From the IMG/VR virus record IMGVR_UViG_3300013093_000029, positions 27,255-91,254 of that record: a stretch of 64,000 bases of DNA. The stretch is one strand, 5' to 3'. The notes under the pieces are model-generated. The model was given only the letters and a program-made list of their open reading frames with translations. It had not been told where the DNA came from and searched no databases. Made by a program: the position numbers and the translations under genes. This document shows, piece by piece, positions 16,638 through 28,283 of the stretch (position 1 is its first letter; the number at the start of each line of letters is the position of its first letter). Source of the stretch: a virus.

Positions 16638-19241
16638 TTAATTAGTGTTTGCTGCTACTCTAGCTGTATGATCTACGTTTTGTTTCATTAGTCTAGCAAT
16701 TTCTGCTAAATGAGCTGTAGCTTCTGCAGAACTAACATCACCGCGTTCCTCGTCGTCCCATTGTTTATATACTTTCTTAATAGGATCTGCTTCTGGACGT
16801 TTCATAAACTCTTCTTGCAGTTGATTTACGTCAAAACCTTCAAAGCCTTTCATACGATCTTTAATCACACCCCAACGATCTTCATTCATGCTAACCTTTG
16901 GTTGATAATCGTTTTCTCCGAATCGCTGACCTTTCATTTCACGCATAGCATCAATAGCTGTTACCAGACTTTCAACTGTGGCATTACTCAATACGCTACT
17001 AGGTCCGTTAGTAGTAACCGGACTAGTTGCTGTTTGATTAAATCCTTGAAGTTGTTTAGCTATTTCAGCTTGCAATACCGGCGAGTTGACTACAGTTTTG
17101 TCCATACCGTCATCGCCGGTTAGGTTTCCAGATTGTAACTTCATGGCATTTATTACATCAAGTAATTTACCAGTTGATACTGTACTTAATACACTACTCG
17201 GGCCACTAATAAGTTCAGGGCCGTTTTCACCAGCAATACCTAGTTTACCTACACCAATTGCACCACCTTTATCATGTTTAGCAACGGATTTCATGTAATC
17301 AGATTGCCAATCACTAGGCTTATTAGCCTGTGCAGCATTTGCATTTTGTGTAGCAGCAAAATCTCTTATACGTTTTTCATATTCTGCTTGCGTTTCATTT
17401 GGTTGTTTTAAGAACGCTGTACTTGATGCTCCTACTCCTTCGGCTTTATTTTCGCCTGTAGCTACTTGTGTCATAGCCGCAGTTCTATTTTCTTTTGCGA
17501 TCCCAGGAGTATGAGTTTTAATACCAAGATCAGCAAGCATATCCTGTACTTGGCTTAACATTGCTTTGCTTACTTCGGCAAATTTTGCTATAGCAGGTGT
17601 TAATTCTTGTTGAAGTGCTTTTTTCAAATCTTGCGCAGCTTCTTCTGCGCCTGTTACACTCTTAGTTAGATCATCATTTGCATCTTTTTGTGTTACTCCA
17701 GCCTCTGCTCCATCTACAGCAGCTTTTGTATATTGATTGTTGGCATCAATTTGTTTAGACATTGATGCAGAAAGATCTTTTATAGCACCATCAGCAAAAT
17801 ATCCAGCACGAGCCAATCCTTGGTTAGAGAGAATAGATTTATTAATCGTTTCACCGTACTTGGCATTTAAATCTGCACCTTTTTTGTAAGTTAATGTATT
17901 ACTTTCCCATGCTGCATATAATTCACTGGCTTTATCTTTAGCACCTCTTACTTGTGCTTCATACATTGCACCTTCTTCGTTAATAACTGCGCCATGTGAT
18001 GCAACACGATCTTTGAAATTTTTCAGCTCAAGATCTGTCATACTTGTCATAGCCTGCTGAATAGCAGCTTGTTGTTCAGGTGATTTTTTAGCCAATTCCT
18101 GTCTAAATATTAGTTCTTTAGATGCTTGTTCAGCAACTTCCATTTTCTTTTTAGCATCTTCACCTGTAATACTAGCAATTAAACGTAGATTTTCTGCATA
18201 TTTTTGTGTAGCATCTTGCACATTCTTATCAGTAACTGTTTTACCAGTGATACGCATCTGTTTAGTAACATCGGCCATTAGACCTACTTGTTCTTCAAAC
18301 CCGTAACCTAATTTTAATAGCTGTTCTTGTGCGCCCGATTCTTTTAGTGCCTTACCGACACGACCTAACATCTTAGTGCCTTCAGTTACACTAATGCCAG
18401 CTGATGCAATCTTTTCACTGCTGGCTTTAACAACATTTGACATTTGCTCAATAGTTAAACCGGCATCTCCTGCGGCATTGCGCATACCAGTCATGCCATC
18501 AGTAAACAGAGCCCCGCTAGCCGACATTTGATTAAATGCTTTGTATGTTTTTTCTACTTCTTTGCTTAAGATCTCAACACCAAACTTAGCTAATTTAGTC
18601 ATTGACTCTGAACTAGCGTCTAGTGCTGATCCGAGTATTTTTGCCGCGCCGCCGACTATAAATCCAAGTCCTTCAGTTTCGACTCCTGCAGCCATAGCTA
18701 CATCACCAAAGGTACTTAATAGCTTACCAGCGCCTTTAGCCGCAGATCCTGCCATGTCAATGCCTGCGGTCATCAGATCTGTAGATAATTGTGTTCCGCT
18801 AGCATCGTCTTGAAGATTTTTTACAAATTGTGCTGTACCTTGAGCAGCTCGACCTAGTATGTCTTTAGTTGCTTTACTAGTTGCATCTGCATATTTCTTA
18901 GTGGCTTCTTCAGCCATTTTAGTAGCAGCGGTCTTGGCTAACTCTGCTTTCATTGATTTCTTAACCGCTATTTCAGCCGCATCAGTAGTTTCATCTAGAT
19001 CTTCAATAGAATCATTGAGTTCATCAATTTTCTTTTTTAGGTCGTCATAGGTGGCTTTTTGCTTTTTAGCGTCTTTGGTTAACTTGTCAATTTCTTTTTG
19101 GAATTTTTCAGCAGATTTTCCAGACTTTTCGTAGATATCGTTTAAGTCCTTGCTGTTTGCGCCAAATCGTTCTAGGAATTCAGCAAACGCTCTTAATTGT
19201 TCTTCATTCATGCTTTTATAGACCTTGGTTTTAGCTACCAT
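16638..19241 (-). CDS. Tail tape-measure-like protein, 867 aa
   Basis: Expected to set tail length and fill the tail tube. I chose the ATG at 19241 (MVAKTKVYKSMNEEQLRAF) because the TATAAATA octamer at 19267-19274 would otherwise fall at or inside the longer frame, which starts at 19265. Residues about 30-110 are coiled coil. Residues 150-220 are Gly/Ala-rich and hydrophobic (GLGFIVGGAAKILGSALDAS). A long helical central region follows. KGGAIGVGKLGIAGENGPEL is the GE-GPEL motif frequent near the end of tape measures. SGPSSVLS/NGPSSVLS units occur twice nearby. The gene lies opposite gp26/gp51-like genes, which fits tail chaperones placed beside their tape measure. The match to T4 gp29 itself is not certain. 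Confidence 0.75.
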   Translation of the reverse strand: MVAKTKVYKSMNEEQLRAFAEFLERFGANSKDLNDIYEKSGKSAEKFQKEIDKLTKDAKKQKATYDDLKKKIDELNDSIEDLDETTDAAEIAVKKSMKAELAKTAATKMAEEATKKYADATSKATKDILGRAAQGTAQFVKNLQDDASGTQLSTDLMTAGIDMAGSAAKGAGKLLSTFGDVAMAAGVETEGLGFIVGGAAKILGSALDASSESMTKLAKFGVEILSKEVEKTYKAFNQMSASGALFTDGMTGMRNAAGDAGLTIEQMSNVVKASSEKIASAGISVTEGTKMLGRVGKALKESGAQEQLLKLGYGFEEQVGLMADVTKQMRITGKTVTDKNVQDATQKYAENLRLIASITGEDAKKKMEVAEQASKELIFRQELAKKSPEQQAAIQQAMTSMTDLELKNFKDRVASHGAVINEEGAMYEAQVRGAKDKASELYAAWESNTLTYKKGADLNAKYGETINKSILSNQGLARAGYFADGAIKDLSASMSKQIDANNQYTKAAVDGAEAGVTQKDANDDLTKSVTGAEEAAQDLKKALQQELTPAIAKFAEVSKAMLSQVQDMLADLGIKTHTPGIAKENRTAAMTQVATGENKAEGVGASSTAFLKQPNETQAEYEKRIRDFAATQNANAAQANKPSDWQSDYMKSVAKHDKGGAIGVGKLGIAGENGPELISGPSSVLSTVSTGKLLDVINAMKLQSGNLTGDDGMDKTVVNSPVLQAEIAKQLQGFNQTATSPVTTNGPSSVLSNATVESLVTAIDAMREMKGQRFGENDYQPKVSMNEDRWGVIKDRMKGFEGFDVNQLQEEFMKRPEADPIKKVYKQWDDEERGDVSSAEATAHLAEIARLMKQNVDHTARVAANTN

Positions 19242-19266
19242 AAATATAAAATATGGTACTATCAAT

Positions 19267-19286: not shown

Positions 19287-20153
19287 ATGAGTCAAACTCC
19301 ATCGTTTAATCAAGCTAACCCATTAGCTAGACACTTTAGACAACCAGTGATCTACACTAAACTACCTAGTCGCGGTCAGTTTTGGCCAGAAGGTAGTATA
19401 GACATCCCTGTTACAGGTGAAATTCCTATTCTAGCAATGAGTACTAAAGACGAAGTTATTCTACGCACACCAGATGCACTGTTAAACGGGCAAGGTGTTA
19501 TTGATGTTATTCAAAGTTGCTGTCCAACTATTAAGAACGCATGGGAAACTCCTAGTATTGACGTAGACAGCATTATTATCAGTATTCGTATTGCTAGTTA
19601 TGGTAATAATATGGAGTTTACCAGCACTTGCCCACACTGTAATACCCAGCATGACTATAGCGTTGATCTAGGAGTAGTTCTACAGGGCATCGAAACACCT
19701 AACTACAGTAGAGGTGTTGACGTAGATGGTCTTAAAATTAAACTACGTCCGCAACCATACTTTAGTCTTAACAAAACTAACATCATTGCTTTTGAAGAAC
19801 AGCAATTGTTACGATCACTACAGATGATTGAAGATAATTCAGACGAAGCACAGGCTAAATTTAATGCACAGCTGAATAAACTAATCGATCTTAACATTAT
19901 GATCACTGCCGACAGTACAGAAAGCATTACCACAGAAGACGGACAACTAGTAACTGATCGTAGTTTTATCAAAGAGTTCTACACAAACTGTGATAATAAA
20001 ACAGTTAAAGCGGTTAAAGCTCGTTTAGATGAATATAACAAACAAGCCAACATTAAACCATTTAATGTTATCTGTAGCGAAGAAGACTGCGCTAAGCCAT
20101 TTGATATTGATATTATATTCGATTTTGCAAGTTTTTTCGGAAAAGGCTCTTAA
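19287..20153 (+). CDS. gp26: Baseplate hub or tail-assembly protein, gp26-like
   Basis: The 288-residue product starts MSQTPSFNQANPLARHFRQP; earlier in-frame ATGs fall within the opposite gene's start region. The YTKLPSRGQFWPEG (about 31-45), LRTPDALLNGQGVIDVIQSC (about 71-90) and SIIISIRIASYGNNMEFTST blocks match the protein annotated gp26 (hub subunit) in T4-like cyanophages. Two cysteine pairs (CPHC near 118 and CSEEDC near 268) suggest a zinc ribbon. The 3' end carries a T TTT TTC slippery site in the correct phase, four codons before the stop, that would join this protein to the gp51-like frame. A role as a tail-assembly chaperone for the neighbouring tape measure is inferred. Confidence 0.8.
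   Translation: MSQTPSFNQANPLARHFRQPVIYTKLPSRGQFWPEGSIDIPVTGEIPILAMSTKDEVILRTPDALLNGQGVIDVIQSCCPTIKNAWETPSIDVDSIIISIRIASYGNNMEFTSTCPHCNTQHDYSVDLGVVLQGIETPNYSRGVDVDGLKIKLRPQPYFSLNKTNIIAFEEQQLLRSLQMIEDNSDEAQAKFNAQLNKLIDLNIMITADSTESITTEDGQLVTDRSFIKEFYTNCDNKTVKAVKARLDEYNKQANIKPFNVICSEEDCAKPFDIDIIFDFASFFGKGS
20132..20138 (+). promoter_or_regulatory. Candidate -1 ribosomal frameshift site (T TTT TTC)
   Basis: In the gp26 frame the codons read agT TTT TTC, the X XXY YYZ pattern. A one-base backward slip continues as cgg aaa agg ctc and runs straight into the gp51-like frame, which is open from 20111. The unshifted frame stops at 20153. The fusion would have 360 residues against 288. I see no clear downstream pseudoknot. 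Confidence 0.6.
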
Positions 20154-20173
20154 CTCTAGATAACGCCAGCGTC

Positions 20174-20368
20174 GTGTCCTTACTCGAAGGATATGACAAA
20201 GAAGTAAGAGCCTTAAAAGATGATGCGTTACGTATGTGTTGGTATATGCGTGGTGGGTTAAGTTATGATGATGCTATGTTGCTAAGTCAAACAGAAAAAG
20301 AAATTATCAATAAGATAGTTAAAGATAATTTAGAAACTACCCAAAAGAGTCATTTGCCTTTCTTTTAA
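20174..20368 (+). CDS. gp51: Hub assembly protein, gp51-like, likely made as frameshift extension
   Basis: Residues EGYDKEVRALKDDALRMCWY and MLLSQTEKEIINKIVKDNLE, ending SHLPFF, match my memory of the short gp51-type protein beside gp26 in T4-like marine phages. As a free gene it would have to start at a GTG (20174) with no ribosome site. The same frame is open upstream to 20111, across the slippery site at 20132-20138, so the natural product is more likely the C-terminal 76 residues of a gp26-gp51 fusion. The gpG/gpGT chaperones of other tailed phages are made this way. Confidence 0.7.
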   Translation: MSLLEGYDKEVRALKDDALRMCWYMRGGLSYDDAMLLSQTEKEIINKIVKDNLETTQKSHLPFF

Positions 20369-20915
20369 TAAAAGTCATTATATTACATACAAGAGTAGTT
20401 GTGTGGCATATATTCTAGACTAATCCATTTGTGTAGTATAATTCGTAATATATTCCATACAAGAAAGATGTCTCTGACATCTGCGTTATCGCTATCGCTC
20501 AACGCTTTTTCTTCTAATCTAAATTACGTTAGTTATTTTGAATTACTGTACTGCTCTTAAACGTTATCATCCAGATTTGGTCATACTTCACCTATCCGAG
20601 GCAAAGTATAAGTCGCATCATCCGAGTTGACAGTCATACTAACTAAAAGAGATTGTTAATCAATAACACGGAGGCGGTCAGCCGGTACCCCCTACTCTAG
20701 CTTCTTCTGACGGGTGCTGTATAGCCATAGTTAGCTAACTATACTAGTCACGTGAGTTGTATTGCTTTTTCTTCAGAGCTCACATCATTTGGCGTTTAGG
20801 CCTAATTGATCGTCGGTGCCATCCAGTGTGTAGTCTACTCTACACGTTCCAAGTGCGGCCATTACGCGAGCACCATCTCCTCTGGATACAGAACTTAATC
20901 TGCAATAGGGCTAAT
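20369..20915. ncRNA. 547-base gene-free region with many inverted repeats; candidate structured RNA
   Basis: No convincing protein gene on either strand, and visibly richer in G and C than the flanking genes. Perfect inverted repeats include 20467-20472/20476-20481 (GATGTC/GACATC), the palindrome at 20727-20742, GTGTAG/CTACAC at 20828-20833/20840-20845 and GTGC/GCAC at 20853-20856/20870-20873. The last two hairpins are enclosed by ATCCAG/CTGGAT (20821-20826/20882-20887), making a three-way junction. A TATAAT lies at 20437-20442 without a good -35. I find no tRNA, tmRNA or group I intron signature. Strand is unknown. A replication or packaging site is an alternative. Confidence 0.45.
20483..20513 (+). 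terminator. Possible terminator after gp26/gp51
   Basis: GCGTT (20483-20487) pairs with AACGC (20501-20505) around a 13-base loop, followed by TTTTTCTTC. The stem is short and the loop large, so it would be a weak terminator, or part of a larger RNA fold. Confidence 0.35.
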
Positions 20916-21353
20916 TTACTTCTTTATTACTAGATCTTTTACTGAATTCTTGCCAAGTTTAATTTGTATAATGCCGTTGTAGTTGTTTTCACGAAGTAAT
21001 ACATGTTCTGTGAATTGGTAGTAGGCCTCTAAGTAGTTTGTTTCGCCTCTACTGTTACATAAATGAATTATGTCACGAGTAAAGTTTTCTTTGCCATGTG
21101 TGTCAATATCTGCTTGTAGTCGCGGACTAGATCCCCAGTAGGTCTTCCAATCTGTTTCTACAACTTCACGACGTTTGTTTTTCTTGCCTTTTAGAGGTGG
21201 TCTCTTTTTGATAGTAGTGAAATATTTGCGGCCAACATAATCGTGACCATTTATATTATTTGTAATTCTGTAGATAAAACCATAATAAGTGCCGATATCC
21301 TCGGATTCAAATGCTACACCGTTATAAATCCAAGGATAATCGTATGATGCCAT
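20916..21353 (-). CDS. GIY-YIG nuclease-superfamily protein, 145 aa
   Basis: Residues about 22-45 read TYYGFIYRITNN then DYVGRKYF, the GIY and YIG strands with the conserved Arg after YVG. A later NYLEAYY (about 105) supplies the expected Glu. A Lys/Arg-rich insert (PPLKGKKNKRREVV) and SPRLQADIDTHGKENFTRDI follow the usual order. Homologous small proteins are common in T4-like phages, where they are labelled Seg-like or homing endonucleases. It has only the nuclease core, with no DNA-binding extension. It abuts the structured gene-free region. Whether it acts in homing or DNA repair cannot be read from sequence. Confidence 0.75.
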   Translation of the reverse strand: MASYDYPWIYNGVAFESEDIGTYYGFIYRITNNINGHDYVGRKYFTTIKKRPPLKGKKNKRREVVETDWKTYWGSSPRLQADIDTHGKENFTRDIIHLCNSRGETNYLEAYYQFTEHVLLRENNYNGIIQIKLGKNSVKDLVIKK

Positions 21354-21569: not shown

Positions 21570-22586
21570 TTACCATTCTGTTGCGTACTGCTGATTTACC
21601 ACTGATATATTACATTTAGTCCTACATTCGGTCCTGGAGAAAATTTCAAACTCTTCGCTCCAATACTGGTCATTTAGGACCTCATTTAATGATCTTTGAT
21701 TCAGATCAAACTGGTTCTTACTTACATCTAACCACTCGTTGTTATGTGAATATCTATTTGCTACCCAACAACAAGGAAATAAATGTCCTTGACTGTTGAT
21801 AAACAAACCCTTATTACCGATTCCACATAACGGAGTTACTTCGCCAAACGTTTCTGCTTGGTTATATAATCTTAAATTAGTTTTTGCACCTACTGTACTT
21901 TCTTTACGTTCATTGAATTGTGTAAAAATCCGTTGGAATCTGTAGTTAGTACTAATTAAGTTATCCTTGGGCTGTAATTGGTCGCTTTCTGGGTATATAC
22001 TATATACTTTATTAAACTTTGTACTTAACGTCAACTGAAATTGATCAAACCCTAGTTCTTTGGCCAACAATTTCATATCATCTAATTTATCTTCGTTAAA
22101 TTTAAATGCAATAGCATCCCAGGTCATATAAACATGACTGCTATTGCGTAAGGTAGTAACGCCTTGAATGATACTCGACCAATTGCTGTTTATACGATAT
22201 TGTTCGTTACTGCCTTGATCCCATCCATCCAAACTAAAGTGAATATGATCATTATGATCTAATGCTTGCCCTAGTCTAGCCCACCAGTCAACATTTTTAT
22301 AGCTACCGTTGGTAACAATAACAAATTTCACTGGTTTAACACTTTTAATATATTCGATCACGTCTATTAAGCTATGTGCATATATAGGATCACCATCGTC
22401 GCCACAAAACGTAATCTTTTCTACGTTGTCTTGTATAAATTCTGGAGTAAAATTCTTCTTAAAGAAATTTAAACTTAATTCTGTGTTTACTAAGGTGTCG
22501 GGAACTTCTGTGCGAGCACAGCGCGGACATTTTAATGTACACTTACTGGATATTTCGATATGCCAATGCCACGTTGCTAATTTCAA
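21570..22586 (-). CDS. Radical SAM/SPASM-domain enzyme (first of pair), 338 aa
   Basis: Residues 16-23 read CTLKCPRC, the CxxxCxxC site that holds the radical-SAM [4Fe-4S] cluster. FCGDDGDPIYA (about 61-71) matches the glycine-rich SAM-binding strand, and FSLDGWDQGSNEQYR follows. The C-terminal part (CGIGNKGLFINSQGHLFPCC, about 249-268, then ECRTKC near 322) is a SPASM-type auxiliary cluster region, found in enzymes that modify peptides or proteins. The start is a TTG overlapping the stop of the paralogue (TTGA). Substrate is unknown; targets could be a virion or host protein. It is 30% longer in linker regions than its neighbour but has the same layout. Confidence 0.82.
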   Translation of the reverse strand: MKLATWHWHIEISSKCTLKCPRCARTEVPDTLVNTELSLNFFKKNFTPEFIQDNVEKITFCGDDGDPIYAHSLIDVIEYIKSVKPVKFVIVTNGSYKNVDWWARLGQALDHNDHIHFSLDGWDQGSNEQYRINSNWSSIIQGVTTLRNSSHVYMTWDAIAFKFNEDKLDDMKLLAKELGFDQFQLTLSTKFNKVYSIYPESDQLQPKDNLISTNYRFQRIFTQFNERKESTVGAKTNLRLYNQAETFGEVTPLCGIGNKGLFINSQGHLFPCCWVANRYSHNNEWLDVSKNQFDLNQRSLNEVLNDQYWSEEFEIFSRTECRTKCNISVVNQQYATEW

Positions 22587-23446
22587 AATTCGACCTCACG
22601 TTGCCATTGGTTTGAGTAACTTGTACCATTTAAGTTTTTTGTACAGGTTGCAACACAAGTTGCATTAGGTGATATCGAATCCCAGGATTCTTGCACAATG
22701 TTAAAATAGTCAATAGTGTGACTAGTATTGCCCAACCAGCAACACGGATACACTATACCCTTGGTAGAAATATATAGACTTTGTTCTTTAAGAGCAACAC
22801 AATCAATAGTTCCGATATTTACACTAGGATTTTTCCATCCGGTAGGGGGATTTAAAAAAGATATAGGGTGATTAGTATGCCGACGACTAACTTTAGCTCG
22901 AAACCATTTAAATCCTAATTCTTTTGCTAATGTTTGTGCTTGATCTACCTGATGTTGATTATGTTCAAATACTAACATTTCCCAGTGAGCTCTACCGCCG
23001 GCGGCAATAAATGCCTGCGCATTTTCTATAACCTTATCCCAACCAACATTTACTCTGTATATGTGATTGGTATCGTTTAATCCGTCGATACTAAAAATTA
23101 CATAATCTTTCTGATAAGATAACATTGCACCTAAAGAACTCCACCAAGTAGTAGACCGTAGACCTCCATTAGTATTCATACCTAATGTTATTGTGGGATT
23201 TAATTTACGAAAATAGCTATAAATTTCTAAGGTGTGCTTGCCTGCGGCAGGATCGCCATAATTTCCACACATATACATCTTGTCTAATGCTTTGATAGTA
23301 TCTTCTGAAATAGCATCTGCTATATTATCTACAGTTAAATGGTGCAGCACAGACTTATCAAACGTAGGATCAGTTTCTCTGCTACATTGCGGACATGCAG
23401 CATTACAAGCATCTGTAGGTTCTACGTGTAATATTTTAGGTAACAT
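22583..23446 (-). CDS. Radical SAM/SPASM-domain enzyme (second of pair), about 287 aa
   Basis: I chose the ATG at 23446 (MLPKILHVEPTDACNAACPQ), which places the CNAACPQC cluster motif at residue 14, as in its paralogue; ATGs at 23452 or 23476 would add 2 or 10 residues. MCGNYGDPAAGKHT is the glycine-rich SAM strand and FSIDGLNDTNHIYR the next conserved strand. The C-terminus has CVALKEQSLYISTKGIVYPC and CVATC, a SPASM-like cluster region. The gene overlaps the end of gp46 and the TTG start of its paralogue, so all are co-translated. It is not the 7-deazaguanine enzyme QueE, whose motif is different. Substrate unknown. Confidence 0.82.
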   Translation of the reverse strand: MLPKILHVEPTDACNAACPQCSRETDPTFDKSVLHHLTVDNIADAISEDTIKALDKMYMCGNYGDPAAGKHTLEIYSYFRKLNPTITLGMNTNGGLRSTTWWSSLGAMLSYQKDYVIFSIDGLNDTNHIYRVNVGWDKVIENAQAFIAAGGRAHWEMLVFEHNQHQVDQAQTLAKELGFKWFRAKVSRRHTNHPISFLNPPTGWKNPSVNIGTIDCVALKEQSLYISTKGIVYPCCWLGNTSHTIDYFNIVQESWDSISPNATCVATCTKNLNGTSYSNQWQREVEF

Positions 23447-25211
23447 CAACATCAGTATTATATGTAGTAAATCCATTCTCTTTTACTACTGTTAAAATAT
23501 TGTTTACACGACCCGCTAGTTCATCTTTATGCGATACTAACCAAATAGATTTGTTATTCTCTCTGGTCATTTTCTTAAGGATAGCAAGAGCATTTTCTAC
23601 ACCCGACGTATCCATACCGCTGTCAACAAGTTCGTCGATAAACAATAAGTTAATTGGTTGATATAAACTTTCCCACACATCACGGAATGCCCATGATAAG
23701 CTAAGGATAAGTCTATTGCGCTCTCCACGGCTTAAGTTATCAAAATCTAACTCTCTGCCTAATTCTTCAATTTGTACACTTAGATCATTTAAGAATTTAA
23801 CCTGATGTGGTAATCCAATTTTATCTAAGTAGTGGCTTAAGCGAGCATTTAAATAGCTTAAGTTCTGATCAATAATGCGTTTACGAATATAACTGTCTTT
23901 ATTAGTTAGTAATTTATGTAGGAACTCTTGGTGTTCTTTAATACGTACTAGTTCATTCATATTAGTATAATCAATTTCAGCAAGTGCTGTAGTGCGCATT
24001 TCAGCTATCTGTTCTGTATAAGGATCAGTTTCTGCTTGCTTACTTATTAATTGTGTTTGTAAACTAGCCACAGTACTACGATGATGGATAGCATCTTCTT
24101 CTTTATCATAGTAAACTTTAGGTGGCGCACCTAATTCTCCTAATGCTGATTTGGCATCGCCTAGGTCTAATAGTAATTTCTCAGCGGTACTATAAGCTAA
24201 AGCTGACTCCTCTAATGATGCTTGTTTAGTTGCTAATACTTCTTCATGCTTGCTATCGTGTAAGTCTTGACCGCAAGCATAACATTTGTGATTGTTTAAG
24301 TCGGCAATTTCTTTGTCTAATTTTTTAATAGTTTTTTGCTCGCGATCCATATCGTTGCTAGCACGCTGTAAAGCTGTGTTAAGGTCTGTTAGGTCTCTAC
24401 GCTTTTGATTGTATGCTGTGAGTTTTTTGTGAGCAGCAATTTCAGCGTCAATGTCGATGTGGGATAATTCTTCAATGGCAGCTACTAGCTTTGACACATC
24501 CTCAATATGTTTAGTAGTCCACATAGTTTGGCGACGTTCTAAGCTAACAATCTGTTCTTCGATACGCTTATTAGCATCAGTAATTGCTTTGATGTTAAAT
24601 TCTTCTTGAGTAATCGCATCTCTGGTTGCTTTACTTTGCTCTTTAAGTGCTTCTGCTTTTTCACTTAATAGAGTAATACCAAGTAATTGTTCAATAATAG
24701 CACGCTGATCATTCGCCTTAAGACTTAAAAACGGTTCTGTGTAGGTGTTAAGTGCAACAATGTGCTTGAACATGTCATGAGACATGCCTAGCAAGCGTTC
24801 AATTTCGGCTTGTGTTTCTCGACTGTCACCTTGACTGTTATCATCTTTAGCTTCTTGTTCGATATCTCCAATATAAAACTTCATTACATTATGTTTACGA
24901 CCGCGCTCAATCTTATAGTCGACCCCATTTACTTCAAAATCAATAGTAACTAACATGTTCTTAGCGTTAGTTTTATTGATCAAGTTATCTTTACGAATAT
25001 TAGTTAGAGCATTGCCGTATAAGGCATAACTTAATGCGTTAATGATAGTAGTTTTACCTGTACCATTACGTGCTCCGCTGTCATCACCACCTAAGTCAAT
25101 ATTCTCGCCTAGGACTAAGGTCAAGTCCTTGCGATCAAAGTTGACGGCCTGCGTAGCATTACCCACACTCATAAAGTTTTTAACTGTAAGATATTTGATA
25201 CGGAAACTCAT
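23436..25211 (-). CDS. gp46: Recombination endonuclease subunit, gp46-like (Rad50/SbcC family)
   Basis: ATPase that works with gp47 to resect DNA ends for recombination and recombination-dependent replication. The 591 residues show Walker A GARNGTGKTT (about 45-54), a long coiled coil (about 180-470) broken by the zinc-hook CYACGQ (about 305), the ABC signature LSRGERNRL (about 503) and Walker B NLLFIDELVDSGMD (about 532). Length fits T4 gp46 (560). Its ATG overlaps the gp47 stop (ATGA), showing tight coupling. Confidence 0.96.
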   Translation of the reverse strand: MSFRIKYLTVKNFMSVGNATQAVNFDRKDLTLVLGENIDLGGDDSGARNGTGKTTIINALSYALYGNALTNIRKDNLINKTNAKNMLVTIDFEVNGVDYKIERGRKHNVMKFYIGDIEQEAKDDNSQGDSRETQAEIERLLGMSHDMFKHIVALNTYTEPFLSLKANDQRAIIEQLLGITLLSEKAEALKEQSKATRDAITQEEFNIKAITDANKRIEEQIVSLERRQTMWTTKHIEDVSKLVAAIEELSHIDIDAEIAAHKKLTAYNQKRRDLTDLNTALQRASNDMDREQKTIKKLDKEIADLNNHKCYACGQDLHDSKHEEVLATKQASLEESALAYSTAEKLLLDLGDAKSALGELGAPPKVYYDKEEDAIHHRSTVASLQTQLISKQAETDPYTEQIAEMRTTALAEIDYTNMNELVRIKEHQEFLHKLLTNKDSYIRKRIIDQNLSYLNARLSHYLDKIGLPHQVKFLNDLSVQIEELGRELDFDNLSRGERNRLILSLSWAFRDVWESLYQPINLLFIDELVDSGMDTSGVENALAILKKMTRENNKSIWLVSHKDELAGRVNNILTVVKENGFTTYNTDVDVT

Positions 25212-26224
25212 AGATGTCTGTAGATATCCAATAATAAATTAGGATCGTAATGATCACTGTTAATGTTTGTTAGATTATTTGTAACGATAGTATCAATACT
25301 TTCAAACTGTACATTACCTAGTTGAATATCTTGGCCGATATCCATATTTTTAGCAGGTATCAGTGTAAGCTCACGTAAATTATAAGTTCCTACAAAAGTT
25401 TCTTTAATAAAAGTAGCTTCTTCGTAGGTAATATCAACATCAATATTAACGCGACAGTGCATATCCTTCAGTAACAAGTTTTCTGGAATACGTAGAATAT
25501 CACTTAGATTGTACACACGATATTTAGGTTGGTCAGGCCAATTGTGAAACTCTGGTTCCTTGCCCCAATCTAAGATCATCATACCTCTGTCGTCGTCACT
25601 AGCATCGGCATAATTATGTGGGAAACAATTACCGATATAGGTAATATTTTTAGAATGTTGACGCTTATGAAAGTGTCCGCTGAATACGTGTTCTATATGA
25701 CCAAAATGTTCACCACGTAGTTCGCCGTGTTCTGGCATTTGTACCATAGCATTCATAAAGAAATGCGGCAATTCAAAATGCCCAAATACGTATTTGCCCT
25801 TTAGCTTAGGTATCCGCTTATGATCGTCGCCGACAAGCCAAGGAGCAATGACAACGTCACTGTCTGAAAACCAGTCATTAACAATTTTAACGTTGGGTAG
25901 GTGTTTTGCCCATTCCACGCTTTGTACGTCACGCTTGTCTCTATAGTAGAGATCGTGATTGCCAGGGATAAAATATACAATATCAAATGCGGCATTTAAT
26001 AACTCCAGGGCTTGTAAACTGTAGTTAAGAGTGACAATGTTAATTGCCGCACGATTATTATGCCAGTCGCCAAGGAAGAAACAGGTTTCACACCCTTCTT
26101 CTTTAGCTTTAGTAATAAACCATTTAACAAAGGTTAAACAATCGTCATTGTGTGCTTGGCTGTTAGACTTTAATCCGAAATGAATGTCAGTACAAACAGC
26201 CGCTTTTTTAAATAAATTAGCCAT
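25208..26224 (-). CDS. gp47: Recombination nuclease subunit, gp47-like (Mre11/SbcD family)
   Basis: Metallophosphoesterase nuclease of the gp46/47 complex. The five metal-binding blocks are visible in order: CTDIHFG (about 12-18), FFLGDWHNN (about 49-57), FIPGNHDLYY (about 86-95), VFGHFELPHF (about 150) and HVFSGHFHKRQ (about 178-188). The 338 residues match T4 gp47 (339). It lies directly upstream of gp46 and downstream of gp55. Confidence 0.96.
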   Translation of the reverse strand: MANLFKKAAVCTDIHFGLKSNSQAHNDDCLTFVKWFITKAKEEGCETCFFLGDWHNNRAAINIVTLNYSLQALELLNAAFDIVYFIPGNHDLYYRDKRDVQSVEWAKHLPNVKIVNDWFSDSDVVIAPWLVGDDHKRIPKLKGKYVFGHFELPHFFMNAMVQMPEHGELRGEHFGHIEHVFSGHFHKRQHSKNITYIGNCFPHNYADASDDDRGMMILDWGKEPEFHNWPDQPKYRVYNLSDILRIPENLLLKDMHCRVNIDVDITYEEATFIKETFVGTYNLRELTLIPAKNMDIGQDIQLGNVQFESIDTIVTNNLTNINSDHYDPNLLLDIYRHL

Positions 26225-27230: not shown

Positions 27231-28283
27231 ATGGCATTAAATTTAGGTGGTTTATTCAACCAATCAGCTGGTAGCTCAACCACCCAGGCATTAACTGGGG
27301 GTACTAGTGTATTCTCTTTATTAGATCCAAGCAATGCTCGCAACGCTATTTCTGGGCTATTGCCAGGCGGAATGAGTAGTGCTGCCAAAGCTACACCTAA
27401 TATAGGCTTCCAAACCGCTGGTGGAAATGGTGGTGCAACGGCCGCAAATGAAAATGACTGGCGAGTAAGAATAAGTTTATCTCCAGGAGCCAAGATTTGG
27501 TATCAAGATCCAACATTGATATCAAATGCTCTAATGTATCCACTAGTTGAAACCAATGGTGTAGTGTTCCCATATACACCAGCTATTACTATCAACCATA
27601 ATGCTAACTACAGTACTGCACAGCTTACACATAGTAATTATCCCGCGCATTTCTACAACTATTCAGAAGTGGCAGACATACAGATAGGCGGCGAATTTAC
27701 TGTACAAAACCCAAGCGATGGCCAATACCTAATGGCGGCCATATACTTTTTCCGTTCAGCAACTAAGATGTTCTTTGGACAAGGTGATAATGTAGGTAAC
27801 CCACCACCAATGGTATATCTAGATGGATATGGAAGTCACTACTTTCCGCATGTTCCTTGCGTAGTTACTAGCTTTCAGCATCAATTACCTGATGATGTAG
27901 ACTACATTCAAGTGCCTATCAGCAGAACTACTATGCAGGAGTCGCAGATTTCTCCATCTAGTGCTACAAATAATACAACACCAGACCTTGCAACCAACAG
28001 TATCACAGGTCCTAACGGTGAAACGTATACTCCAAATTGGAACTTTACCGGATCAGCAACGGGTGATGCTGCCCTAGCAGCTAACAATAACACAATGAAT
28101 ACTACAAAAACACAGTATAGTACTATTACAACTACTACACGCTTACCAACGAGAAGTAGCATTTCAATTACATTAAAACCAATGTATAGTCGTAAAAATC
28201 TTGCTGATAACTTTGATCTTAACAAATTTGCCCAAGGAATGTTGTTGGCTAATCCAACCACAGGTGCAGGAGGATTTATCTAA
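27231..28283 (+). CDS. gp48: Baseplate tail-tube cap protein, gp48-like
   Basis: The N-terminal 70 residues are Gly/Ser/Ala-rich. DWRVRISLSPGAKIWYQDPT (about 77-96), FPYTPAITINHNANYSTAQL, HSNYPAHFYNYSEVADIQIG and GEFTVQNPSDGQYLMAAIYF follow, and the end is LKPMYSRKNLADNFDLNKFA. This series fits the tube-cap family of T4-like phages. T4 gp54 is a paralogue, so gp48 versus gp54 is less certain than family membership. It is first in the baseplate operon; its stop overlaps the start of the next gene (TAATG). Confidence 0.8.
   Translation: MALNLGGLFNQSAGSSTTQALTGGTSVFSLLDPSNARNAISGLLPGGMSSAAKATPNIGFQTAGGNGGATAANENDWRVRISLSPGAKIWYQDPTLISNALMYPLVETNGVVFPYTPAITINHNANYSTAQLTHSNYPAHFYNYSEVADIQIGGEFTVQNPSDGQYLMAAIYFFRSATKMFFGQGDNVGNPPPMVYLDGYGSHYFPHVPCVVTSFQHQLPDDVDYIQVPISRTTMQESQISPSSATNNTTPDLATNSITGPNGETYTPNWNFTGSATGDAALAANNNTMNTTKTQYSTITTTTRLPTRSSISITLKPMYSRKNLADNFDLNKFAQGMLLANPTTGAGGFI

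Follow-up and report, generated by a model that had tools for sequence, protein, structure and literature searches.

A tail-assembly chaperone gene that is very probably expressed in two forms by means of a programmed -1 ribosomal frameshift was identified in the window, a 64,000-nucleotide stretch (positions 27,255 to 91,254) of the 91,254-base virus record IMGVR_UViG_3300013093_000029. This gene, a member of the T4 gp26 family, carries the slippery heptamer T TTT TTC close to its 3′ end, and an overlapping -1 frame is predicted to supply a C-terminal extension in the position expected of T4 gp51. The reading, which is drawn from sequence comparison, is carried by a slip site conserved among relatives, phages very distant from T4 included, a -1 frame that is both open and under selection, an RNA stem that covaries downstream of the slip, and the paralogy of T4 gp26 and gp51.

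The gp26-like protein matches PF12322 (T4_baseplate; E 1.4e-15, 58 bits against a curated cut-off of 24.5) and phrog_150, named 'baseplate hub' (E 2.2e-17), and is the single match of its family in the 91-kb record. Its ATG at 19287 is preceded by AGGA, matching four of the six bases of AGGAGG. The 3′ end of the gene reads AGT TTT TTC GGA AAA GGC TCT TAA, in which TTT (20133-20135) and TTC (20136-20138) are codons of the gp26 frame and four codons (GGA AAA GGC TCT) separate the heptamer from the stop. An open -1 frame extends from 20111 to a TAA at 20366-20368, as it also does in relative L001, and the predicted fusion comprises 284 + 76 = 360 amino acids (aa) with the junction ...DFASFF-RKRLL. 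On each of these points the sequence agrees with the initial annotation of this DNA, which had described the heptamer in exact phase, the stop four codons beyond it, a -1 frame open from 20111 and the junction ASFF-RKRLL. TTTTTTC occurs seven times in the window, counting both strands, and a chance heptamer is ruled out: only the copy at 20132 has a phased frame open for at least 100 codons, and this copy is kept in relatives. No start codon lies before or at the slip in the -1 frame of the window; the first past it is a GTG at codon 14 (20174), and ATGs follow at codons 34 and 38. This GTG lacks a Shine-Dalgarno sequence, its best match being three of the six bases of AGGAGG, and falls within a predicted inner hairpin; an independent gene at 20174 was rejected for the window. 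It had been argued earlier that a free second protein would need a GTG without a ribosome site, and independent initiation at this codon is indeed not credible here.

The junction was read in three sets of relatives, namely a window clade, a cyanophage type and a group of named records, the first two of which were picked without regard to the heptamer. The window clade (L002-L011 and L149-L228 plus the window, with L149-L228 being the best 80 of at least 596 viral-contig relatives) provides 89 readable junctions; L204 and L224 were left out because their junctions lie beyond the contig end, and L149 and L004 are one contig, so 88 junctions are distinct. The cyanophage-type set is the best 80 of 276 found and includes S-PM2 itself, and records were taken up from three relative searches (8 of 61, 12 of 701 and 1 of 1339, the last being RB43). 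At all 89 window-clade junctions a phased T TTT TTC is accompanied by an open -1 frame, which in L152, L158, L171 and L228 runs to the contig end. The same holds at all 80 cyanophage-type loci, where the heptamer is invariably located exactly one codon before the stop (80/80). Among the named records, T TTT TTC is found in 15 of 22, again together with an open -1 frame, T TTT TTG in two (RHph_I1_9 and relative L229) and T TTT TTT in one (pf16). The comparison of relatives proposed in the initial annotation therefore came out as expected at 169 of 169 window-clade and cyanophage-type loci and in part among the named records, three of which keep the six T with another last base while four are without the heptamer.

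At 80% gp26 identity the 169 loci form 95 clusters; an earlier count of 109 clusters used loci selected for the heptamer, whereas the present count uses the unselected loci. The codon before TTT TTC is AGT in 39 clusters, AAT in 32, TCT in 13, ACT in 4, GAT in 3, CAT in 2 and GCT in 2. The residue before the slip thus varies (S, N, T, D, H, A), whereas a T precedes TTT TTC in every cluster and the Phe-Phe pair is invariably TTT TTC, giving log10 P values of approximately -18 for the preceding T and -68 for TTT TTC under an assumption of cluster independence, which fails. The comparative case for a predicted programmed -1 frameshift is strong.

Coding in the -1 frame was examined in 34 sequences without a start codon in codons 0-13, drawn from the 56 with a stop four codons past the slip. 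The ratio of nonsynonymous to synonymous polymorphism (pN/pS) in codons 8-13 of this frame, all beyond the 0-frame stop, is 0.60, compared with 1.18 and 0.90 in the other frames; by this measure the -1 frame is under protein-level selection ahead of any start codon. Together with the phased heptamer, the open and selected frame supports the earlier proposal that a programmed frameshift would join the two frames.

Judged by the aligned relatives, a covarying RNA stem begins 4-6 nt past the slip. Removal of near-duplicates from the 89 window-clade loci left 71 sequences in which the stem was assessed, and 47 of these have a 5′ arm reading GGCTNTT. In these 47, C/T at one position is matched by G/A of the 3′ arm in 46 sequences (the exception being C-A), and A/G at a second position by T/C in 46 (the exception being G-T, which still pairs), with Fisher values of 2e-11 and 1e-10 that are uncorrected for relatedness. 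The second pair ties a synonymous leucine choice, TTA or TTG, to a codon approximately 50 nt downstream. In a gp26 tree built from the same sequences (92 branches), changes of the 3′ arm fall on branches also changing the 5′ arm in 5/5 and 3/3 cases for the two pairs, against 6 and 4 changes of the 5′ arm. Pair counting over 67 aligned sequences finds 63.6% of cells paired, versus 57.8% in shuffled controls and no more than 49.4% in slid ones; of the two helices, the outer is paired in 73.2% of cells and the inner in 52.1%, leaving the inner hairpin unsupported as a conserved element. RNAalifold recovers an 8-bp stem from 43 gapless sequences, selected by the 5′ arm alone, and gives no structure for the 47 sequences that include length variants, with one-codon insertions unaligned. 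In the window, an 85-nt fold reaching the 3′ arm has a z of -4.09, with 1 of 200 shuffles as good, and self-complementarity exceeds 500 of 500 across-sequence permutations both in the window clade (n = 70) and in cyanophages (n = 21). Six window-clade members (L009, L010, L172, L175, L185 and L212) keep the post-slip stem with a nearer 3′ arm, indicating that the size of the hairpin shifts and its start stays close to the slip. In a 50-nt fold test, the cyanophage hairpin past the slip (n = 22) has a mean z of -2.98, with 73% below -2 versus 9% of controls, and the named phages (n = 15) have a mean z of -1.26, with 47% below -2 versus 7% of controls. The one Rfam match near the slip site is below its family threshold and was judged to be chance. 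The stem may stimulate frameshifting.

T4 genes 26 and 51 are separate and divergent, and gene 26 is without T TTT TTC. PF12322 covers T4 gp26 (1-206) and T4 gp51 (1-201) over its full length and phrog_150 matches both, identifying the two proteins as paralogues, and gp51 possesses 48 further C-terminal residues beyond the shared domain; as read from these profile matches, it is a gp26 body with a C-terminal extension. The common domain and the extra piece of gp51 support the suggestion in the initial annotation that T4 gp26 and gp51 belong to the gpG/gpGT functional class. Record-wide searches with phrog_150 at E <= 0.1 recover two body copies in T4 and RB43 and one in each of the other 21 records, with one match apiece in the fragment records G001-G004; a second short match in S-PM2, P-HM1 and pf16 is a -1-frame piece overlapping the first. 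RB43 (L046 2501-3794) encodes a fused gp51 followed by gp26 in tandem, a layout that appears intermediate between the frameshift unit and the divergent T4 pair. The window-clade gp26 profile matches single T4 gp26 and gp51 weakly (hhalign, 14.8 and 6.4%), and the link between the window and T4 therefore rests on PF12322 and phrog_150. The profile phrog_634 gives a convincing E-value only for T4 and S-PM2, with one weak match elsewhere in Atu_ph07. PMC3004832 counts both T4 proteins among the hub-assembly chaperones and describes gp51 as essential and of unknown function.

The window extension relates to the -1 frames of Phosso/Atu_ph07 (hhalign, 99.7%), RaK2-type phages (96.6%) and PA5oct (96.2%), and the cyanophage -1 extension matches the C-terminus of T4 gp51 (91%, E 9.5e-7) as well as whole T4 gp51 (73%, E 3e-5). 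A weak bridge connects the RaK2 group with the set formed by VH7D, P19, ACP17, Bhz51 and pf16 (15.8%, P 0.0016; reversed controls, P at least 0.057). The model of the window extension is helical, with a predicted local distance difference test (pLDDT) value of 81, and has no match among viral models at E <= 0.001. The AlphaFold model of the gp26-like protein (mean pLDDT 85) matches 62 predicted viral proteins at E <= 0.001, several of them annotated as baseplate hub. The structure search for tail chaperones, another check proposed for this locus, had a mixed outcome: Foldseek gave no tail chaperone at that threshold, and the first six VIA matches include the HK97 tail chaperone 2ob9 at rank 3 (Z 5.8; root-mean-square deviation (rmsd) 4.4; 100/107 residues) and, at rank 6, yqbn 3klu (Z 5.7; rmsd 8.7; 92/119 residues), which we take to be a tail-chaperone relative. 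Both are tied with unrelated chains, and the resemblance of the modelled gp26 to a tail-chaperone fold is therefore suggestive only.

A number of observations weigh against a frameshifted chaperone. At the protein level, the window-clade extension is without sequence similarity to gp51 of T4 (0.3%) or of cyanophages (0.5%), such that the -1 frame product, earlier called gp51-like, deserves the name by position and not by sequence, and no solved structure matches the gp26 model in Foldseek at E <= 0.001. Four of the 22 named records (K474, VP-1, Kevin and IME-SM1) are without the heptamer, VP-1 and Kevin being filed under Ackermannviridae. IME-SM1 (L040 2215-2230) has five T where its sister Bhz51 (L145) has six, and being one T short its annotated gp26 continues in another frame; the missing T is possibly a sequencing error. 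In K474 (L041 2208-2405), VP-1 (L045 2211-2417) and Kevin (L049 3247-3423) the second open reading frame (ORF) is still in the -1 phase, and a switch of mechanism is possible. VP-1 has GTTTTTC, resembling the GTTTTT motif of the paper on phage Adele (PMC12846349). An early -1 frame ATG (codons 3-5) occurs in Phosso, Atu_ph07, SD-1_S14, VH7D, Bhz51, RHph_I1_9 and S-PM2, and at 45 of the 80 cyanophage-type loci the first such ATG is at codon 5. Start codons ahead of the slip are present at 4 of the 89 window-clade loci and 2 of the 18 named ones. In those relatives a free second product may thus be made. As for the RNA, RNAalifold run on all 67 aligned sequences gives no consensus structure, and the 50-nt fold test in the window clade (n = 70) yields a mean z of only -0.54, with 23% below -2 versus 9% of controls. 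A short 3′ hairpin in the window was rejected with a 50-nt z of +0.9, a stretch outside which the 3′ arm of the stem falls.

One rival reading has the frames as distinct overlapping genes, with translation of the second arising from termination-reinitiation (coupling) and not from a frameshift. Public annotation draws S-PM2, P-HM1, Phosso, BF and others as two separate ORFs, many cyanophage-type loci have start codons near the slip, and in K474 and VP-1, without the heptamer, the second ORF is annotated from an ATG overlapping the stop (TAATG). However, the nearest start in the window is the GTG without a Shine-Dalgarno sequence inside the predicted hairpin, the first -1 frame ATG is missing from the scanned stretch, or comes at least 25 codons after the slip, in 55 of 89 window-clade loci, and protein-level selection on the -1 frame is detected ahead of start codons. 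Coupling also leaves the invariant phased heptamer unexplained, and it is considered very unlikely. Still less credible is transcriptional slippage on the T6 run to produce mixed mRNAs that join the frames. Such a run is present at 187 of the 191 junctions read, and the loss of one T in IME-SM1 relative to the six of Bhz51 would be in keeping with it, but polymerase slippage needs no codon phase, no final C and no stem 4-6 nt downstream, all of which are conserved. Six T is also short for polymerase slippage.

A different objection accepts the frameshift and assigns the pair to the baseplate hub, as a component or catalyst, and not to the gpG/gpGT class of tail-assembly chaperones. Baseplate hub is the name used by Pfam, PHROGs and the T4 annotation, genetic studies place gp26 in the hub according to PMC3004832, and the Foldseek search gave no significant match to a solved tail-assembly chaperone. 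Standing against these are the short/long architecture, which would come from a single-copy frameshift gene here and from two paralogues in T4, the tape-measure-like neighbour in some relatives, the VIA ranking, whose first six matches include yqbn and the HK97 tail chaperone, and the literature in which tail chaperones of T4-like phages are reportedly assigned (Vladimirov et al. 2022, by way of PMC10885494 and PMC12846349). A hub role in place of a chaperone role is judged unlikely, if less so than the other alternatives.

In the proposed mechanism, in which the fusion protein, the frameshift efficiency, the chaperone action and the binding partners are presumed, most ribosomes would complete gp26 (288 aa), and some would stall on the downstream RNA stem with tRNA-Phe on both codons of U UUU UUC. 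After slipping back by one base, the stalled ribosomes would read past the UAA and append 76 residues, so that a gp26-extension protein of 360 aa results. If the lambda gpG/gpGT system is a guide, coating of the tape-measure protein would fall to the short form, and the long form, the rarer of the two, would bring in tail-tube or baseplate-hub subunits through its extra domain. T4 appears to obtain the same pair from paralogous genes, with gp26 as the short and gp51 as the long form. The paralogy and the gp51 extension make the frameshift and the gene pair look like two routes to short and long chaperones. It is somewhat more probable than otherwise that a frameshifted gp26/gp51 unit with a 3′ RNA stem is ancestral to the contractile tails of the T4 superfamily, including cyanophages, jumbo phages and uncultured lineages, and that gene duplication, tandem in RB43 and split in T4, replaced the frameshift, with gp51 as the long chaperone and the stem setting the short-to-long ratio; the order of frameshift followed by duplication is what we infer. 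The comparison offers a concrete role for T4 gp26 and gp51 and a natural experiment, in which a short/long pair is apparently the product of a frameshift in some phages and of a gene duplication in other phages; given the covarying stem, a small reporter could test the frameshift. Among the annotated frameshift-type records examined there is none that joins the two frames; these records draw two genes, with the second called 'hub assembly catalyst' or hypothetical, or omit the second.

The features of the locus are listed in Table 1. The initial annotation had the pair facing a tape-measure-like gene; the neighbouring ORF is instead encoded on the opposite strand, back to back with gp26, and it matched no tape-measure family in Pfam and PHROG profile searches. 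A large gene is located between the portal gene and gp26 in Phosso, PA5oct, BF and SD-1_S14, while the annotated gene ahead of gp26 in Atu_ph07 is a small hypothetical. The BF neighbour matches three tape-measure PHROGs at approximately 3e-6, those of Phosso, PA5oct and SD-1_S14 match no tape-measure PHROG, and the RaK2 record annotates its neighbour as similar to tape measure. The tape-measure-like identity of the window neighbour is weakly supported. Past the extension ORF, approximately 550 bases (20369-20915) contain only short mechanical ORFs of at most 58 aa and have no Rfam match above threshold. These are followed on the minus strand by a 145-aa ORF (20916-21353) starting YYGFIYRITN...YVGRK, which by this start motif resembles a GIY-YIG homing endonuclease, by two adjacent ORFs (21570-23476) with CxxxCxxC-type motifs, which we take to resemble radical SAM proteins, and by two ORFs (23436-26224) that, judged by reading, resemble the T4 gp46/gp47 recombination nuclease subunits. 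Recombination endonuclease genes are also annotated near gp26 in Atu_ph07 and BF.

Table 1. Features of the gp26-like locus, in window coordinates.
Feature	Position	Strand	Remarks
875-aa neighbour ORF	16638-19265	minus	divergent (back to back) from gp26
gp26-like gene (T4_baseplate family)	19287-20153	+	288 aa; predicted short chaperone form
Slippery heptamer T TTT TTC	20132-20138	+	X XXY YYZ phase of gp26 frame
-1 frame extension	20138-20368	+	76 codons past slip; stop 20366-20368
RNA stem, 5′ arm AAGGCUCUUA	20143-20152	+	4 nt past slip; covarying 8-bp core starts 6 nt past slip
0-frame stop TAA	20151-20153	+	bases 1-2 sit within stem 5′ arm
Inner hairpin GUCGUGUCCUU/AAGGAUAUGAC	20171-20197	+	predicted in window; contains GTG 20174
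GTG-started ORF (mechanical call)	20174-20368	+	64 aa; judged not an independent gene
RNA stem, 3′ arm UAAGAGCCUU	20205-20214	+	pairs with 5′ arm AAGGCUCUUA

One of the nearest parallels is the gpG/gpGT system of lambda, as described in PMC5009743, which the locus resembles in that a tape-measure-like gene adjoins gp26 in some relatives. No relationship in sequence to the lambda proteins emerged, none having been searched for; the slip here is T TTT TTC followed by a long-range covarying stem, and the relatives of the window are contractile-tailed phages of the T4 superfamily. The gp26 and gp51 chaperones of T4-like phages share the same PF12322/phrog_150 domain, with gp26 as the short form and a gp26-like body with a C-terminal extension as the long form. 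T4 itself has two separate genes without a slippery heptamer or a gp51-type -1 overlap, whereas in the window, as in a large majority of the relatives examined, there is a single gene with a -1 overlap and a slip site. Cyanophage gp26/gp51 (S-PM2, P-HM1) is like the window in its heptamer, which there lies one codon before the stop, its -1 overlap and its hairpin past the slip, and differs in that the extension is not detectably similar to that of the window and the hairpin is for the most part local, not long-range.

Vladimirov, Gautam and Davidson (2022, Virology 566:9-15) reportedly described the tail-assembly chaperones of T4-like phages as short and long forms. Citing that study, the PRFect paper (PMC10885494) states that some T4-like phages do without a frameshift and carry two chaperone genes, one short and the other long and fused, and the Adele paper (PMC12846349) that poly-T slippery sequences are known in the TAC-N genes of T4-like phages; by these statements the short/long and poly-T kind of chaperone is already known. 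The Adele paper also predicts a conserved -1 frameshift at a poly-T GTTTTT joining TAC-N and TAC-NC in Vandenendeviridae and Andersonviridae, the motif being invariant in these two other families. That motif differs from the T TTT TTC of the window, and the likeness lies in the frameshift arrangement. No report of a T TTT TTC slip or of a stem in these phages was found among the papers listed by the literature searches, a coverage that Vladimirov et al. 2022 lies outside. While it may overlap with that study, the present comparison of sequences would add to the known kind a member from an uncultured lineage, the wide spread of the slip over jumbo phages, cyanophages and some Straboviridae (VH7D, P19), and the covarying stem.
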